DNA of 64,000 nt, taken from positions 1 through 64,000 of the forward strand of contig MOEB01000012.1 of the NCBI GenBank assembly GCA_001939945.1. The letters run 5' to 3'. Made by a program: the position numbers and the translations under genes. The notes under the pieces were generated by a model. It searched no databases and was not told where the DNA came from. It saw only the letters and a list, made by a program, of their open reading frames with translations. Positions 5,529-54,500 of the stretch are shown one piece after another; positions within the stretch are counted from its first letter, which is position 1, and each line of letters starts with the position of its first letter. Source of the stretch: Aerophototrophica crusticola (GTDB lineage Bacteria > Pseudomonadota > Alphaproteobacteria > Azospirillales > Azospirillaceae).

Positions 5529-6439
5529 GCCACGCCCCCGGCCAGGGCGGGCTCCTGCCGGCGAACGGGGGCCGCGGCGGCGTCGCCCAGGAACACCCGG
5601 TCCATGCGGTCCCAGCGGAAGTCGCGCAGCAGCCGCTCCACCTTGCCCTGCATCGCATGCAGGTTGACGTAGTGGCGGAAGCGGGACTTCAGCGGCAGGC
5701 CGGCGACACGCGGCTGCTCCGGGTCCACCTCCCAGGGGTGGAAGTAGAAGATGGCGGGCTGGCCGTCCGTGCGGTGCAGGTGCTCCAGCCCGCGTCGGAA
5801 CAGGGGATAGGGCGCCAGCCGGAAGAAGCCGCCGCCGCCGCAGGGCAGCCGCTGCCGCCCCACCTGCACGGTGGTCACCGGAACCTCCAGCAGGCCGGGG
5901 ATGGGCTCGAACGGGAAGCGGGGGGCGTCCGGCACGCCGTAATGGTCGTGGCGGATGGGGTTCAGGCTGCTGGAATAGCGGTAGCCGGCAGACGCCAGCT
6001 CCGCATAGGCCCACCAGTTGGTGCGGTTGACGGAGAAGCTGGGCGCGCGGTAGCCCAGCACCGGCACGCCGCCGATGTCCTCAAGCCGCCGCTTCGTGCG
6101 GTCCACGTCGCGGAAGAACTCGTCCGGGGTCAGGTCGGTGACCCGCTCATGGTCCCAGCCGTGGCTGGCCAGCTCATGCCCGCCGGCCACGATGTCCCGC
6201 ACCAGGCTGGGGTGGCGGGTACCCACGCAGCCCAGGGTGAAGAAGGTGGCCCGCACCCCGGCCCGGGCGAACAGGTCCAGCACCCGGGCTGTGTTGGACA
6301 CCACCCGGTCGGGCATGCGGCCCCACTGGTCCCGGCTGACCACGTCGGCGAAGGCGGAGACCTGGTAATAATCCTCCACGTCCACGGACAGGCCGTTGGC
6401 CGGGATGGGGGAAGCGACGGGCATCGGCACGTCAGGCAC
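5525..6439 (-). CDS. Polysaccharide deacetylase, DUF3473 type, XrtA-associated
   Basis: A NodB-fold deacetylase. The catalytic Asp pair is in LSVDVEDYY near the N-terminus, the metal-binding histidines are in ELASHGWDHER, GYRAPSFSV is the third motif, and a DUF3473-like C-terminus (IFYFHPWEVDPEQP) follows. It should remove N- or O-acetyl groups from the polymer. I place the start at the GTG at 6439, because AAGAGGAG lies exactly 7 nt before it and the codon overlaps the TGA of the ATPase gene. The in-frame ATG at 6424 has no ribosome site. Predicted length is 304 residues. It is translationally coupled on both sides within the operon. Confidence 0.92.
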   Translation of the reverse strand: MPDVPMPVASPIPANGLSVDVEDYYQVSAFADVVSRDQWGRMPDRVVSNTARVLDLFARAGVRATFFTLGCVGTRHPSLVRDIVAGGHELASHGWDHERVTDLTPDEFFRDVDRTKRRLEDIGGVPVLGYRAPSFSVNRTNWWAYAELASAGYRYSSSLNPIRHDHYGVPDAPRFPFEPIPGLLEVPVTTVQVGRQRLPCGGGGFFRLAPYPLFRRGLEHLHRTDGQPAIFYFHPWEVDPEQPRVAGLPLKSRFRHYVNLHAMQGKVERLLRDFRWDRMDRVFLGDAAAAPVRRQEPALAGGVA

Positions 6440-7466
6440 GGTGCAGCTCCTCTTGGTTCCGGGCAGCGCCCGCCTGGCCGACAAGGCCCAGCAGGTGGCG
6501 CAGCACCCGGTCATGGCTGTCCAGGTGGCGGCGGAGCTGGGACACCTCCCGCCGCAGCTGGTCGATCTCGGCCTCCGCCGGTTCGGGGATAGTCAGGCGC
6601 AGGGGCTTGGCGGGCCGCAGCACCGCCGGTTCCGCCGTGGCGGCCAGCGACATGCCGGATTCGAGCGCCAAGTCGTCCACCACCACCTGGGCCTGGGGGG
6701 AGTCCAGCCGGGACAGCCCCTCCAGCGCGCCCAGCAGCAGCAGCCGGTTGCAAAGCTGGTTGACCAGCCGCGGCACCCCCCGGCTGGCCCGGTGGACCAC
6801 GTCCAGGGCCGGCTCTGTCAGCTCCGGGTTGCCGGCCCAGCCGACGTTGGAAAGGCGGTGGCGGACATAGGCGCCCAGTTCCTCCCGGCCCAGCGGCTCC
6901 AGGTGGCACCAGCCGATGACCCGCTGGCGCAACTGCTCCATGTCCGGGCTGGCCAGCAGGCGCTGGAACTGGGGCTGGCCCACCAGGAAAGTCTGCAACA
7001 GGGGCTGCCCGTCCCCGGTCAGGTTGGACAGCATGCGGATCTCTTCCAGCGTGCGGGTGGGCAGGTTCTGTGCCTCGTCCACCACCAGCAGCACCCGCCG
7101 GCCCAACCGGCGGCGGCCGGCCAGGAAGGCCTCAAGCTCCGCCAGCCGCCCGCCCTTGTCGGCGGCCCGGGGCACCAGCCCGAAGGCGGCCAGGACCAGG
7201 CGCAGGGCGCTGTCCTCGTCAACCTGGGTGGTGGCGATGCGGCCCGCGTCCAGCCGGGCCGGGTCCAGCTCGGCAAACAAATGGTTGACGACGGTGGACT
7301 TGCCGGTGCCCACCTCCCCCGTCACGACGATGAAGCCTTCCGCCTGCTGCAAGCCGTAGCGCAGGTAGGACAGGGCCTTCTCATGCGCCTTGGAGCGGAA
7401 GAAGCCGTCGGTGCTGGGCGTCAGCCGGAAGGGCGGGCCGGACAGGCCATAGGCGCGCTCGAACAT
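6432..7466 (-). CDS. XrtA-associated ExeA-like ATPase
   Basis: An AAA ATPase of the ExeA/TIGR03015 type, 344 residues. Walker A is GEVGTGKS at 50-57 and Walker B is VLLVVDEAQ at about 125-133. The N-terminal MFERAYGLSGPPFRLTP is the usual family start. A coiled segment at about 285-325 precedes the C-terminus. These ATPases are constant members of XrtA exopolysaccharide operons and probably energise or regulate assembly; the exact role is not established. The ribosome site GGAGG lies 9 nt before the ATG, overlapping the end of the outer-membrane protein gene. The stop overlaps the GTG of the deacetylase gene. Confidence 0.93.
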   Translation of the reverse strand: MFERAYGLSGPPFRLTPSTDGFFRSKAHEKALSYLRYGLQQAEGFIVVTGEVGTGKSTVVNHLFAELDPARLDAGRIATTQVDEDSALRLVLAAFGLVPRAADKGGRLAELEAFLAGRRRLGRRVLLVVDEAQNLPTRTLEEIRMLSNLTGDGQPLLQTFLVGQPQFQRLLASPDMEQLRQRVIGWCHLEPLGREELGAYVRHRLSNVGWAGNPELTEPALDVVHRASRGVPRLVNQLCNRLLLLGALEGLSRLDSPQAQVVVDDLALESGMSLAATAEPAVLRPAKPLRLTIPEPAEAEIDQLRREVSQLRRHLDSHDRVLRHLLGLVGQAGAARNQEELHRA

Positions 7467-7469
7467 CTC

Positions 7470-9101
7470 TCAGAACCTCCAGCCCAGGGCCAGCGTCAGG
7501 GTGGTCTCGTGGTATTGGCGGTCGTCGCCGGCCTCGCCGCGGGCGTGGCCCAGGCCGGTGGTCAGGGACAGCCGCTCCGACAGGCGCCAGTCCAGCGACA
7601 GGGTGCCCCCGCCGGCCAGCCGGGTGCCGCTGCCCTCCACCTCCGCCCGGCGGGCGAAGGCGCTGGTTTCCACCGTCAGGCGGCGGGACAGGGCGTGCCC
7701 CCAGGTCAGCCGCGCCTCCGCCAGGGACTCGTCGGGGCGGGCGCGGTAGTCGCGGTCTTCCCAGCGGAAGGAGACGGCATAGCGGTTGGCGTCGCGCCGG
7801 GTGCTGGCCGACAGGGCCACCCGGCTGAAGCGGTAGGACTGGTCCGTGATGCCGAACCCGTCCCGCGTCTCCACCCCCGGCAGGGCGACGGGCGCGCCGG
7901 TGGCGGGGTCCAGCACGAAGGCGGCGGGGGCCAGGGTGTCGATGCCGGCGGTGAAGGACCGCACCGCCTCCGCCGCCAGGGTCGTGCGGGGGGAAGGGTC
8001 GAAGCTCAACCGGGCATCCAGGAACGGCGCCTCGTACCGGCGGCCGGCGCGGGCCTCCAGCTTGGTGCGCCGGCCGGGCGTGAAGGTCAGGCCGGCCGTC
8101 CAGACGGGGCCCTTGAAGGGATCGCCCCAACTGTCGGAGTCCAGATCCTCATACCCGGCCATGGCCTCCAGGGTCAGGGCGCGGCTGACGGCGCCCGCCA
8201 ACCGCAGCTCCCCCGTGCGCCGCTCGGAGTCGGCGCTGCGGCCGCGTCCGTCGGTGGTCTCCGCCTCCCCCAGCAGGGTCAGACGGTGCCGGGCGCCGCC
8301 GAAGTCGACCTGCGCCCGGCCCAGATGGCTTTCCGGCTCGGCCACCAGGTCCGACGCGGTGAAGGCGCGGGCGTACTCGTAGCGCAGCTCCGCCGCCCCG
8401 AACCGGCCCAGGCGGGGGGTGAGGGAGGGGCTGAGGCGGATGGTCTGCAAGCCCACCCGGTCGCGGTTGCCGCTGCTGTCCGACGGGGACGGGGCGACGC
8501 CGGTGCGTTCCGGTACTTGGGTGGCGGTGGCCTGGGCCTCGATGAACAGCAGGCGCCGCACTGCCTCCCCCCGCGCCATGGCGTCCAGGGTGTGGCGCAG
8601 GTCGGACTCGGTTCGCTCCTCCCCGAAGATGCTGTCGAAGTCCAGCCGGTAGTCGGCGGACAGGTAGGTGCGGGCGGACTGCTGGCGCAAGGTCGCCCCG
8701 GCGCTGTTGGTCCAGACCAGCGCCGCCTCCCGCGCGCCCGCGGGCTCCAGGTCGATGTTGTCGGTCAGGGTCACCTTGCTGGCGGCCAGCAGCTCCGCCA
8801 CCAGCGGCTCGGCACCGGCGGGCAGGGCGAGCGCGATCCCGGCCAGGGCCAGGGTGGCGACGCCGGGGCCGAAGGGGGTCGAACGGCGCCACTCCGTCCC
8901 CTCTCCCAGGGGGAGAGGGACAGGGTGAGGGGAGGTTCGGCCAGGACAGCAGGCCCGTTTCTGCGACTTTCGAATTCGAAAGCCGTGCAACCCCTCTCCC
9001 TGTCCCTCCCCCTCTGGGGGAGGGGACGCGGGGGCGAGGTTCGGCCCCGATGCAGGCCGAGGGGCACGCTTGTGCGTCAGGGAAGGTGGGGCGAAGGGCA
9101 T
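7470..9101 (-). CDS. Outer-membrane beta-barrel protein, TIGR03016-like, with repeat-derived N-terminus
   Basis: The body is a beta-barrel of alternating strands (such as RTYLSADYRLDF and VSFRWEDRDYRAR), ending in a C-terminal aromatic residue (TLTLALGWRF). That fits the XrtA-associated outer-membrane protein family, which probably forms the secretion channel partner. A secretory signal (GVATLALAGIALALPAGA) occurs only about 80 codons into the frame. Between it and any usable start (ATG at 9101, or TTG at 8990 preceded by AGGGAGAGG) the frame reads straight through two copies of a GC-rich repeat. No ATG, GTG or TTG precedes the signal more closely. The true start is therefore uncertain; a repeat insertion may have displaced it. 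Confidence 0.82.
   Translation of the reverse strand: MPFAPPSLTHKRAPRPASGPNLAPASPPPEGEGQGEGLHGFRIRKSQKRACCPGRTSPHPVPLPLGEGTEWRRSTPFGPGVATLALAGIALALPAGAEPLVAELLAASKVTLTDNIDLEPAGAREAALVWTNSAGATLRQQSARTYLSADYRLDFDSIFGEERTESDLRHTLDAMARGEAVRRLLFIEAQATATQVPERTGVAPSPSDSSGNRDRVGLQTIRLSPSLTPRLGRFGAAELRYEYARAFTASDLVAEPESHLGRAQVDFGGARHRLTLLGEAETTDGRGRSADSERRTGELRLAGAVSRALTLEAMAGYEDLDSDSWGDPFKGPVWTAGLTFTPGRRTKLEARAGRRYEAPFLDARLSFDPSPRTTLAAEAVRSFTAGIDTLAPAAFVLDPATGAPVALPGVETRDGFGITDQSYRFSRVALSASTRRDANRYAVSFRWEDRDYRARPDESLAEARLTWGHALSRRLTVETSAFARRAEVEGSGTRLAGGGTLSLDWRLSERLSLTTGLGHARGEAGDDRQYHETTLTLALGWRF
8898..9047. repeat. Two copies of a GC-rich palindromic repeat around a TTTCGAATTCGAAA palindrome
   Basis: Two direct copies (8898-8942 and 8992-9047) both begin CCCCTCTCCC and end GAGGTTCGGCC. 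Each contains an internal inverted repeat of CCCTCTCCC/GGGAGAGGG type. They flank a spacer with the 16-bp perfect palindrome CTTTCGAATTCGAAAG at 8967-8982. The same repeat family occurs at 50301-50490 and, as one short copy, at 59708-59741. Here the whole unit is open in the frame of the outer-membrane protein gene. Confidence 0.8.
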
Positions 9102-9108
9102 GGGGTGC

Positions 9109-9966
9109 TCAGCCCTTGGCCCGGGTGGCATATGGGTAATAGCTGCCGAAGCGGTTCTCGCTGGCAGCATGGGTGGCCTGGTTCAGCAGCAGGGTCAGGT
9201 CGCCCACCCCCTCCAGCAGGCCCAGGGCGGCGCGCACGGCGGCGGCCCCGGTCTTGCGGGCCTGCACCACCAGCAGCACCGTGTCCGCCTGCTCCGCCAG
9301 CAGGGTGCCAAGCCCGGCGGCCAGCACCGGCGGGGTGTCGATGATCACTAGCCCGCCCGGCACCTGGGCGCGCAGCCGGTCCAGCAGGGTGGCGGCGGCA
9401 TCATGCGTCAGCCGGTCCACCGCGCCCGCGGTCTCCTCCCCCGCCCGGGCCAGCAGCAGGCCATAGGCGGGGTCGGCCAGCAGGCCGGGCAGGCCCGGCG
9501 CGTCGGGCTCCGCCAACCACTCCGCCAAGCCGGTGCCCGGGGCCACGCCCAGCCGCTCCGCCACCGAGGGACGGAACAGGTCGGCATCGGCCAGCAGCAC
9601 CGGCACCCCTTGCAGCCCGCAGGCCAGGGCCAGGTTCACGGCGGTGAAGGTCTTGCCCTCCCCCGGCTCGGCGCTGGTCACCACCAGCACGCGGGCGGCG
9701 CCCCGGGGCGCGTCGGCGCATTTCTGGCGAAGGCGACGCCAGACCAGCCGCATCTCCTCCGCCAACCGCGTGCCCTGGGCCTCACGGGTCACCAGCGCGC
9801 CGGGCAGGCGGGCGGCGGGGGCCTCGTCCACCCGGAATTCCAGCGGGGCGGCGATGCAGTGGGGCAGGGGGGCCGTGGGGGCGGTCGCGGGCTCCGCCCG
9901 GGAAACGGGCGGCGGCTCCGGCGGCAGGGGGGACAGTTCGCAGGTGGCGCGGAAGATCAGGCTCAT
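9109..9966 (-). CDS. Tyrosine autokinase (BY-kinase, CpsD/EpsG-like), XrtA-associated
   Basis: A 285-residue cytoplasmic P-loop kinase. The Walker A' motif SAEPGEGKT is at about 98-106, followed by the second Asp motif VLLADADLFRP and Walker B VIIDTPP. It ends in a short tyrosine-bearing tail (SYYPYAT) that can be autophosphorylated. Together with the preceding chain-length protein it would set polymer length. The start is placed at ATG 9966 because GGAG lies 9 nt upstream. The longer GTG-initiated reading (9993) would run into the end of the neighbour. It has fewer C-terminal tyrosines than classical CpsD/Wzc. Confidence 0.92.
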   Translation of the reverse strand: MSLIFRATCELSPLPPEPPPVSRAEPATAPTAPLPHCIAAPLEFRVDEAPAARLPGALVTREAQGTRLAEEMRLVWRRLRQKCADAPRGAARVLVVTSAEPGEGKTFTAVNLALACGLQGVPVLLADADLFRPSVAERLGVAPGTGLAEWLAEPDAPGLPGLLADPAYGLLLARAGEETAGAVDRLTHDAAATLLDRLRAQVPGGLVIIDTPPVLAAGLGTLLAEQADTVLLVVQARKTGAAAVRAALGLLEGVGDLTLLLNQATHAASENRFGSYYPYATRAKG

Positions 9967-9983
9967 GGCTTTTGTCTCCGTCC

Positions 9984-11537
9984 TCACGGCCACAGGGCAC
10001 GGGCGGCGCGCAGGGCCTCGCCCACGGGGCCGCCCAGGGGCTCGGTCGCGCCGAACAGGGCGATGGCGGTGCCCTGGAGGCCCAGCAGCACCAGCAGCGA
10101 TGCGGCCAGGGCGATGGCGGGCAGGGCGACGGCCGGGGCGGGGCCGGTGCGGGTGACGGTGCCGATCACGTCCAGCCCGAAGGCGTCACGCAACTGGTCG
10201 GCATCGTGGAAGGGGCTCTTCATGTGCAGGGCGGCGAGGCCGGCACCCAGGCCCGCGCCGAGGCCCGCCAGGACCACGGCCAGCATGAACAGCACCCGCG
10301 GCGGGCCGGACGGGGTGATGGGCACCTGGGGCGGGTCCACCACGCGGTAGTCCACGGACTGGGTCCGGTCGCCCACCTGCTGGGCCAGCCGGGCGGACTC
10401 GCGCCGGGCGATCAGCTCCTGGTGGTTCTGGCGCAGCACCTCATAGTCCCGGTTCAGGGCGGCCAGCTCGTTCTCCAGGGACGGGAGCTGGTCGAGCTGC
10501 GCCTTGACCTGGGCGATCAGGGCCGTGGTCTCCTTCGACCGGTGGGTCAGCATGGCTACCTTCAGCTCCGCCTCCCGCGCCTTGGCGGACAGCTCGGCGT
10601 GAAGCGGGTTGGCGGGGCCGGCGGGCGCCTCCGCGTCGCGGGCGCCGCCCTCGGCCTTCAGGCCGTCCACCTTGCGGCGGGCATCACGCACGTCCGGGTG
10701 GTCGTCGGTGAAGCGCAGGCGCAAGCCGGCCAGTTCCTGCTCCGCCAGTTGCAGGGGCGTCAGCCCGGCCGGGCCGGCCTGGCCGGCGGGCAGGGTCCGG
10801 GGCGTGCGGGCCAGCTCGACGCCCACCTGGTCGCGGCTCCACACGGCGGCCTGCAGCTCCGTGTCGGTCTGGCGGGCCTGGGCCTCCGCCGAGGCGAGGC
10901 GGCGGGCCATCTCCTCCTTGCCCACAAGCTGCTCGGCGTGGCGGCTGCGGAAGTCGGCGACGCGCTGCTCCGTCTCGCGCAGGCGCTTCTCGTACTCGGC
11001 GATCTGCTCCCCGATGAAGCGCTGGGTCTTCTCGATGTCACGGCGGTTGGAGCCGAGGTTCTGCTCCACGAAGATGGTCAGCAGCGACTGCACCACCTTC
11101 TGGGCCGTGCGCGGGTCGCGGTGGGTGTAGGCGATGGAGAAGAGCTGCGGCCCCTCCGTGCGGAAGGTGATGTCGCGCTTCAGGTCCTGGACCAGGGCCT
11201 CCATCTCCGCCGGGCTGCCGACCTTCAGGTCCAGGTCGGCCATGCGGGCCAGCTCCTCCAGGTTTGGCCGGGTCATCAGGGTCTGGCGCATGATGTCCAG
11301 CTGCTGCTTCAGGTCCGGCTGCACGGTCAGGCCGGTCAGCAGCGGCTTCAGCAGGGTCTGGGTGTCCACATAGACGCGGGCGTTGCTGGTGAAGCGGTCG
11401 GGCAGTGCGGCCACCACCGCCGTGCCGGCCAGGCCCACGCCCCAGGCAACGGCTAGCACCAGCCGCCGCCGTTCCCAGAGGCCGGGCAGCACCCGCCGCA
11501 ACAGGTCGCGGACGGTGTCGAGGGGGGACGTCGCCAT
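9984..11537 (-). CDS. Polysaccharide chain-length determinant, EpsF/Wzz type
   Basis: A 517-residue inner-membrane protein. A transmembrane helix near residues 26-45 is followed by a Wzz domain, a long helical coiled-coil stretch (about 190-400, rich in Glu, Arg and Gln) and a second helix near 423-448. A further hydrophobic segment lies near 473-500. The layout fits the TIGR03007-type XrtA chain-length protein, which spans the periplasm and governs chain length with the tyrosine kinase encoded 17 bp downstream. It is the second gene of the operon, 16 bp after the export lipoprotein gene. The extra C-terminal hydrophobic segment is unusual compared with a simple two-helix Wzz. Confidence 0.92.
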   Translation of the reverse strand: MATSPLDTVRDLLRRVLPGLWERRRLVLAVAWGVGLAGTAVVAALPDRFTSNARVYVDTQTLLKPLLTGLTVQPDLKQQLDIMRQTLMTRPNLEELARMADLDLKVGSPAEMEALVQDLKRDITFRTEGPQLFSIAYTHRDPRTAQKVVQSLLTIFVEQNLGSNRRDIEKTQRFIGEQIAEYEKRLRETEQRVADFRSRHAEQLVGKEEMARRLASAEAQARQTDTELQAAVWSRDQVGVELARTPRTLPAGQAGPAGLTPLQLAEQELAGLRLRFTDDHPDVRDARRKVDGLKAEGGARDAEAPAGPANPLHAELSAKAREAELKVAMLTHRSKETTALIAQVKAQLDQLPSLENELAALNRDYEVLRQNHQELIARRESARLAQQVGDRTQSVDYRVVDPPQVPITPSGPPRVLFMLAVVLAGLGAGLGAGLAALHMKSPFHDADQLRDAFGLDVIGTVTRTGPAPAVALPAIALAASLLVLLGLQGTAIALFGATEPLGGPVGEALRAARALWP

Positions 11538-51507: not shown

Positions 51508-54500
51508 TCCCCACCAGCACCACGGACTGGCCGCCGCCCAGGCCCAGCACGGCATTGCCCTGTGCGTCCGCGCGGGCGCCGTCCAGCAGGGCGGCCAGGG
51601 TCAGGCCCGTGCCCTGGAACAGCAGCATGTCCTGCCCAGGGGTGAAGTCCAGCACCCGGTCGGCCCCGGCCTCCTCCGCGCGGAAGACGAAGCTGTCCGC
51701 CCCGGCCCCACCCTTCAGGAAGTCCGACCCCGGCCCCCCCTCCAGCCGGTCCGCCCCGTCGCCACCGAACAGGTAATCGGTCCCCGTGCCGCCCAGCAGC
51801 CGGTCGTTCCCGGCCCCGCCGAACAGCATGTCGTCCCGCCCGCCCCCGGACAGCGCGTCGTTGCCCGCCCCGCCATGCAGCAGGTCGGCCCAGTCGCTGC
51901 CCGCCTTCGTGACCGGCCCGCTGCCCGCGGGCGCCACCCAGACCCGGTCCTGCCGCAGCAGGGTCCCATCCGGCATCTCCATGGCGATCTGCCAGGTGGG
52001 CTTCAGCGTGGCGTCGGCGAGCTGCTTGGTGGTCATGGAGACGACGAAGCCGAACGCTTCCGCCGACAGCGGGTCGTGGGTGGAGCTGAAAGTGCTGGCC
52101 AGGGCGGCCTTGGCGTTGGCCCCGTAATTGTCGGCATAGCTGCCGAAGTCGGCGGGCGGGGCAGTGCCGGCGGGGAAGCTGGCCTTGGCCACCTCCGCCC
52201 AGCTCTTGTAAGCGGTCCCGGCCGCGTCCCGCATGTTCAGGATGTAGGCGGCGCCGAAGCGGGGGTCGAAGCCCTGGTCGCCGCTGGCGAAGCGGCCGGC
52301 GACGAAGCTCTCCATCCAGTCCAGCAGGGTGCCCGCCGCGTCGAAGCCCCGCTGCTCCGCATAGCGCAGCACCACGGCCATGTAGTCCTGCTGCCAGGGC
52401 CGGTTCTCCGGGTTCTGGCCGGCGCTGGGGTCGAACCAGCCCTCCATGGCCCCCTGCCAGTCGCCACCGGTGCCCGCGGCATAGAGCTTCACGTAGTGGG
52501 CCAGGTTCTCATTCACCAGCTTGGTGAAATAGGCCTTCAGCGGGTGGCCGTCTGGCGTGGCGTAGGCGGCGTTGGCGTAGTCGCGGAGGCTCCAGGCGAT
52601 CTCCCGCACCTGGCCGCCGGTGACCACGCGCCCGCCCTCGTTCCCGGCGTCCCAGGATGCCTGGTACAGCATCTCGTCCAGCCGGTAATGGCTGCCGGTT
52701 GCCAGGTACGGCATGTAGGACAGGGATGGCACATGCGCCCGCTCCGGCGTCCAGCCCGTGTCCTTGGTGTTGTAGGGGCTGGGCAGCTGGTCGGCGCCGT
52801 ACTGGGTGCCGGTGCCGCGGTAGTCGATCCACAGCTTCGGGTGATCGTCCAGGGTGACCGGGCGGCCCGTCTTCTCATCCCGGAAGTGCCAGGGGGCGCT
52901 GCCCGCCGCGTCGGCGTTGGCCATCATCAGCTTCCAGGCCCGCGGGTCCTGGCTGACCAGCCATTGCGCCGCCCATTCCGGCTCCGCCCCGATGTCGGCC
53001 CGGATGCCCGTGGTGGGCATGTAGGGGGTGACCAGGGCCGGGCCCATGGGGCCGGTGTCCTTGGTGTCCAGCAGCTTGGACAGGTAGTCCAGCCGCGCGC
53101 CCGACACGCCCAGGCTGGTGTCGTAGCGCGGCACGGCCCCGCTCTCCACCCAGTAGTCCGGGTCGAACACCACATGGATGTCATGGGCAGGTTTGCTGGT
53201 CACCGTGGCGTGCCAGGTGGCGTTGCGGTGGTGCGCCAGGCCAAGTTCCTGGAACACGACCTTGCCGCCCTGGGTGATGGCCGCGTCATAGGTGACGGTG
53301 CGGATGCCGGGCGTGAAGGTGTTGGCGTTGCTGACAACCACGTCCGTGGTCACCTGCCCGTCCTTGCCCACGCGGATGTCGAAGGTGGCGCGGAGTTCGC
53401 TGTTGAGCGCCGTCTCCACCCGGAACTCGGCGGCCAGAGGGCCCTTCAGCCAGGTCTCCACCGTCCCGGCCGCCACCGCCTTGCGCAACAGGTCGGCCGC
53501 GTCCACCGCCAGGGTGCCGGTCGTGCCGTCCGCGTTCCTGACGTTCAAGGTCAGGTCCAGGTCGTAACCCGCTGACAGGATGTCGTTCACGGACAGGCCG
53601 GCCCCGGCCGGTGCCACGCCGCCCTTGGCCAGCACGCCGGCCAAGTCGGCCGTGCCGTTGCCGGTGGGGGTAGCGACGGACAGCACGGCATGGCGCACGC
53701 TGCCGTCGCCATGGCTGGCCTTCACGTCCACCTGCACGGCCAGTTGGGACCCGTCGGCCAGCCGGAACACCAGCCCCTCACCGGGCTTCAGGTCCCCCGG
53801 CTTGAAGACATGGCCGAAGGTCACCACCGTGCCGCCCGGGCTGCCACTGCCCAGGTGGTCCAGCACCAGGCCGGCCAAGTCCCCCGGCCTGCTGGGGTCC
53901 GGCGGGTCGGCGCGGACAAGGCCCGGGTTGCTGATCGCCGGGTCGGGCGGGGAGGTCGGGTTGTCGCCGGCCGGTGGTGGCGTCGTCGGCGGGGCAGGGG
54001 CTTGCGCGACGTTGCTCACGGCCAGGGTGACGGTCTTGGTCAGGCTGGCGCTGTCACCGTTCGCCTGTTCCCGCGCCGTTGCGGTGACGGACAGGGTGCC
54101 GCTGCCGGACCAGCCGGCCGGCAACGTGATCGCCAGACCGTCGACTTGCGAATTCGAAAGTGTCCAGGACCCGTCTGCCGCCAGGGTGCCACGGTTCAGG
54201 CTGGCGCCCGCGGGCAGGCCGCGGACCACCAGGGACAGCACCTCCGACCCGTCCATGTCCGCCAGGGCCGCCGTGACCGGCAGGGCCAGGGTGGTCGGCT
54301 GTCCCGCCGCCAAGGTGGCGGACACGGCCCCGGGCAGGGACAGGCTGGGCGTGTCCGCCATGGCCGCGACGCCAACGGCCAGCACGGCGCCCGCGGTGGC
54401 CACCTTGCCGGCCGCGTCCACGGCGCGGGCCAGCAGGGTGAGCGCCATGCTGCCGGACCAGTCCTTGGGCGGTGTCAGGGTCAATCCCGGTAGTTGGTCG

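Follow-up and report, generated by a model that had tools for sequence, protein, structure and literature searches.

The stretch of DNA under study (the window) comprises 64,000 nucleotides of a contig (C24) of Aerophototrophica crusticola, whose genome amounts to 6.06 Mb in 328 contigs, and has a G+C content of 71%. Its minus-strand genes between positions 1696 and 12171 include an XrtA/PEP-CTERM exopolysaccharide locus, recognized by NCBIfam profiles, whose members are exosortase A, a TIGR03015-like ATPase, a TIGR03016 outer-membrane protein, a TIGR03018-like tyrosine autokinase, a TIGR03007 chain-length determinant and a TIGR03027 export protein. The features discussed here are the following.

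6432-7466, minus strand: downstream gene, XrtA/PEP-CTERM-associated ATPase (TIGR03015)
7470-9101, minus strand: TIGR03016-family XrtA/PEP-CTERM-associated outer-membrane protein ORF, 543 aa from ATG 9101 (ORF, translation)
8811-8861, minus strand: predicted signal-peptide hydrophobic core and cleavage region, VATLALAGIALALPAGA (translation; hydrophobicity by inspection)
8878-9046, no strand assigned: dispersed palindromic element, an inverted REP-like dimer of 169 bp (29 full copies aligned; 24-copy alignment; fold)
8895-8933, plus strand: left REP-like arm, CGTC and 9-bp local stem CCCTCTCCC/GGGAGAGGG, then ACAGGGTGAGGGG (near-invariant in alignment)
8966-8983, no strand assigned: 18-bp palindrome ACTTTCGAATTCGAAAGT, with one mismatch, in the spacer of the element (97-site search)
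8988-8990, minus strand: TTG 8990, alternative in-frame start in the element, preceded by GGGAGAGGGG and inside the predicted hairpin (sequence; fold)
8991-9028, minus strand: right REP-like arm, inverted, CGTC and 9-bp local stem CCCTCCCCC/GGGGGAGGG (window copy identical to consensus)
9099-9101, minus strand: ATG 9101, preferred start candidate, 7 nt past the kinase stop (sequence; start position in the orthologues of one genus)
9109-9993, minus strand: upstream gene, XrtA-associated tyrosine autokinase-like (TIGR03018, E 5.9e-33)

The outer-membrane protein passes the curated cut-off of TIGR03016 (98 bits against 90.85), whereas the ATPase gene falls just below that of TIGR03015 (311 bits against 324.5) and the kinase-like gene below that of TIGR03018 (114 bits against 230.65). 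The kinase stop codon lies at 9109-9111, and the gap between it and the signal core is filled by the palindromic repeat, past which the 470 residues of the outer-membrane protein are intact, as judged from the ORF and the NCBIfam match. An earlier note, made from the sequence alone, had described the repeat as open in the frame of this gene, with the secretory signal starting only past it, and an inspection of the sequence and its frames bears this out.

The same note had placed two repeat copies and a palindromic spacer at 8898-9047. The inverted pair is real, but the alignment of genomic copies delimits a single 169-bp unit at 8878-9046 of which the supposed copies are the arms. These inverted-repeat arms (8875-8941 and 8982-9048) are 79% complementary across 67 nt, and each contains a hairpin of its own that starts with CGTC and has a 9-bp stem; the CGTC tags, at 8895-8898 and, inverted, at 9025-9028, are near-invariant among 24 copies, and about 55 nt separate the two near-invariant arms. 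The terminal inverted repeats are GGTCGAAC / GTTCGGCC, with the consensus form GGTCGAAC/GTTCGRCC, and most copies carry MITE-type ends GGTCGAACGG / CGTTCGRCC. RNA folding predicts that the whole strand forms one long hairpin (-117 kcal/mol, z -7.35), most of whose stem pairs are invariant among the 24 copies, covariation contributing little. The spacer does hold a palindrome, as the note had claimed, but this is a member of a separate and larger repeat family: ACTTTCGAATTCGAAAGT occurs at 97 genomic sites with up to 3 mismatches (a reversed-pattern control yields 0) and its exact 16-bp core at 54, while other copies of the 169-bp element have at this place a different spacer sequence of about the same length. 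No copy of the exact core was found in 58 relatives, a literature search returned no relevant match for the motif, and Rfam has no match within the window.

Further repeat copies, which the note had suggested looking for, abound in the genome. A genome search followed by alignment recovered 29 full copies of the element, mostly of 169-171 bp, as well as degraded ones; the other full copies are 78-84% identical to that of the window. A gene finder based on codon usage, with the window as its training set, placed 27 of the 29 in intergenic positions, mostly beside gene 3' ends; the remaining two are in coding context, at the N-terminus of the TIGR03016 gene and within hypF, in different frames and orientations and with no peptide in common. 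At the DNA level the element was not found in 10 congeners and the other relatives searched; in a genome of a related genus of the same family (G014; L223-L234), the arm motif has 36 exact matches, most of them forming inverted units about 100 bp long whose spacer differs from that of the 169-bp element. Two modes of mobility were considered and set aside. A profile search detected no Y1/RAYT transposase (PF01797) in the genome, while a control search had hits in 5 of the 14 known genomes, and a RAYT-driven REPIN was rejected on this ground. Flanking direct repeats show no clear excess over shuffled pairing (best z 2.4, 128 combinations); in the absence of a clear target-site duplication, a MITE that makes such duplications was likewise rejected. 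It is of note that the window contains two near-identical short stretches, ATGCCCTTCGCCCC (9101-9088) and ACCCCCTTCGGCCCC (8879-8865), in the same phase and 222 nt apart, which flank the inserted block and are possibly a duplication made by the insertion.

The second coding copy lies in frame inside hypF (L089 506-3139; G000:C318:18280-20910), an ORF of 877 aa located directly between hypB and hypC that scores 715 bits against TIGR00143. Some 110 of its residues, which the HypFs of relatives lack, form an insert of three nested repeats, all in frame: a variant of the 18-bp palindrome, a GTCACCCC...GGGATGAC repeat recognized by inspection, and the 169-bp element. Since hypF carries this second in-frame copy, in-frame insertion has taken place more than once in this genome.

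In the outer-membrane protein gene, no stop codon interrupts the frame from ATG 9170 (or 9101) across the repeat. An open frame had been entertained as evidence of coding, and this argument was dropped because the element averages 3.4 stop-free frames of six per copy (29 copies); a random stretch of 56 codons at the same G+C is stop-free about 37% of the time. What is unusual in the window copy is not its openness but a missing start. Between the element and the signal peptide there is no in-frame ATG, GTG or TTG, exactly as the earlier note had stated, and the first such codon past the element is GTG 8801, within the mature protein; upstream, in-frame starts are offered by TTG 8990 within the element, by ATG 9101, and by two more ATGs in the kinase gene. 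Thirteen copies have a gene within the next 300 nt downstream, and 12 of these offer an ordinary start codon past the element and ahead of the coding sequence; the window copy is the sole exception.

Orthologues bear on the question of where the protein once began. They have about 8-30 residues ahead of the hydrophobic core and nothing like the extension of the window gene, so that the note's suggestion that they might begin right at the signal peptide proved sound. In the window gene, 80 residues separate ATG 9101 from the core, or about 24 once the element is subtracted, a length that fits the range of the orthologues. Three orthologues from the same family (L002-L004; genus g8) have an ATG that overlaps the kinase stop codon. 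The 10 congeners have no TIGR03016 gene, hence no empty site for comparison there.

Codon usage differs sharply on the two sides of the element. Directly past it, the signal segment has a strong codon signature, with a GC3 of 0.96, whereas the 18 codons (54 nt) between ATG 9101 and the element have G or C at third positions in 12 of 18, a value of about 0.7 being obtained in all three frames with no frame preference; at coupled gene starts in this genome the count is at least 15 of 18 in 29 of 29 cases. Because these 54 nt lack a coding signature, the stretch past ATG 9101 may be a spacer that predates the insertion, in which case the gene may no longer have its native start and may be impaired. 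The age of the event matters as well. The arms of the window copy differ from the consensus at 1 of 42 and 0 of 38 positions and, since they are so near to it, the insertion looks recent. For the same reason, the argument that an ORF kept intact despite an old insertion speaks for function was abandoned: with an insertion that looks young, an intact ORF does not by itself prove function.

The best explanation, in which we place moderate confidence, is a recent insertion of the element at the 5' end of the outer-membrane protein gene, with translation, if the gene is expressed, most likely starting at ATG 9101 and reading through the repeat. A non-autonomous palindromic repeat, an inverted REP-like dimer of REPIN- or MITE-like character, would have landed between the kinase stop and the signal core, parting the hydrophobic core from its start codon or destroying that start. 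Ribosomes that finish the kinase would then start at ATG 9101 and read through the repeat, and the n-region of the signal peptide would grow by about 56 repeat-encoded residues. As cleavage by signal peptidase would take these away together with the rest of the signal, the mature barrel would be unchanged. The recent date of the insertion, initiation at ATG 9101, read-through translation of the repeat and persisting secretion are steps that we infer. In favor of the explanation as a whole we count the 29 copies that define the element, the missing start, the shorter orthologues, the GC3 past the element, the intact 470 residues and the hypF copy. Against read-through stand the lack of a coding signature between ATG 9101 and the element and the youth of the insertion; in addition, the predicted hairpin of -117 kcal/mol would have to be melted, and an 80-residue stretch ahead of a hydrophobic core is unusual. 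The earlier note had put forward an insertion of the repeat at the start of the gene that supplied a new start codon, and its first half agrees with a species-specific repeat and shorter orthologues, while the 54 nt and the recent date weaken the second.

The sequence cannot separate read-through from an impaired gene, and the latter is the main rival. In it, the insertion would have removed the native start or separated it from the gene, which would now be disrupted at its 5' end and unexpressed or weakly expressed, and the hairpin would be an mRNA element only, attenuating the operon or stabilizing the message of the upstream kinase. This is a serious possibility, although we rate it below an even chance. 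The codon usage upstream of the element and the apparent youth of the insertion speak for it, as do the very stable predicted hairpin and the placement of nearly all other copies in intergenic positions, mostly beside gene 3' ends, as is the case for REPs (PMC3733652); yet an in-frame ATG persists 7 nt past the kinase stop, the frame is open across 169 bp of repeat, and the downstream ORF is intact, a fact for which youth alone could account.

Read-through from ATG 9101 also has to be weighed against an internal start, in which the repeat would provide both the initiation codon, TTG 8990, and, in its purine-rich GGGAGAGGGG, the ribosome-binding site. This codon is in frame, has GGAG 5 nt upstream and would leave 43 residues to the hydrophobic core, nearer to the orthologues, but we consider it unlikely: codon and binding site would both be within the predicted hairpin, TTG is a weak start, and the other copies upstream of genes have an ordinary start past the element and give no sign of such use. 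That the element is wholly extragenic, translation beginning at a non-standard codon such as CTG or ATC in the signal region, is very improbable. Di Nocera et al. do warn that many REPs at apparent N-termini are extragenic owing to misannotated starts (PMC3733652); here, however, no ATG, GTG or TTG is found downstream ahead of the mature protein, and a CTG or ATC start inside the core would make the signal peptide implausibly short. Least probable of all would be an assembly or base-calling error, in the form of a frameshift or a misjoined repeat. The assembly is in 328 contigs and repeats misjoin easily, but the spacer and flanks of the window copy are unique and lie within a contig of 126 kb, the element is short, and the hypF copy lies in a different, nested context.

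The best-known examples of palindromic insertions in frame come from the reduced genomes of Rickettsia. The Rickettsia palindromic elements (RPEs) occur both between genes and in frame within unrelated genes (Ogata et al. 2000, 2002; reviewed in PMC10969869 and PMC2229807) and, in the account of one of these reviews, comprise a hairpin-forming class of 105-150 bp in an alphaproteobacterial host, with no known autonomous transposase (PMC2229807). The analogy drawn by the earlier note is an apt one in view of the in-frame copy in hypF: by description, RPEs and the present element are alike in their long stem-loop and in their intergenic and in-frame placement, the element being slightly longer at 169 bp. 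RPE hosts have reduced genomes, whereas the present host has 6 Mb of GC-rich DNA; and with two coding copies of 29, in different frames and orientations, the element yields no shared peptide of the RPE type.

Structurally, the GTAG/CGTC-tagged REP dimers, which are mostly alphaproteobacterial and in some cases lie within coding sequence, at the N-terminus or internally (Di Nocera et al. 2013, PMC3733652), resemble it in having two inverted CGTC-led hairpins with 9-bp stems, a conserved spacer and a location mostly beside gene 3' ends. The stem of the 169-bp element nonetheless opens with C-G pairs, where CGTC-tagged REPs have A-T pairs; its loop is of about 3 nt rather than 4-5; and it ends in ACAGGG, without the CCA tail, and has additional terminal inverted repeats that bring it to 169 bp. 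REPINs (PMC3116915, PMC2817692) share the inverted REP pair that forms one long hairpin, the copy number of about 30 and the species-specific distribution, but are associated with RAYT transposases, whereas no PF01797 protein was found in the present genome. The closest precedent for the signal-peptide case, compared by description, is the RU-2 / YPAL element of Yersinia, a 168-bp repeat that encodes part of the signal peptide predicted for a putative exported protein (Delihas 2007, PMC2759123); host and gene differ, and RU-2 contributes to the predicted signal itself, whereas the hydrophobic core in the present case belongs to the gene. The note had expected such a case in an exopolysaccharide operon to be new; it is not new in kind, since in-frame fusions of REPs and MITEs, including at N-termini and in signal peptides, have been published (PMC3733652, PMC2229807, PMC2759123, PMC10969869), and the present case would be another instance of this phenomenon, in part still unproven.

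In a broader proposal, which we advance only tentatively, active species-specific palindromic repeats, comprising the 169-bp dimer, the 18-bp palindrome and one or more further repeats, would enter coding frames and be tolerated there, in the n-region of a signal peptide and in hypF. If true, an RPE-like process of protein modification would operate outside Rickettsia, in an alphaproteobacterium-like species with a large genome. The same outcome in a cleavable signal peptide and in an enzyme, within a large GC-rich genome, would make it possible to ask when inserts are tolerated, and the signal-peptide case is of particular use here, since the mature protein would no longer carry the added residues.

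The 18-bp palindrome may be bound by a protein or may itself be a very small mobile palindrome. A further site lies in the window at 54144-54161 and others at loci L127-L166; boundaries are sharp, and sites often stand directly past stop codons. In murE (L140), the palindrome replaces 15-16 nt of the sequence of congeners with no change in length. A second repeat family, with arms CCTCACCCCGACCCTCTCCCC, is present at G000 C1:522876, C121:10388, C35:76034 and about 18 more places, and at one of these at least (L148) its spacer holds the ACTTTCGAATTCGAAAGT palindrome.
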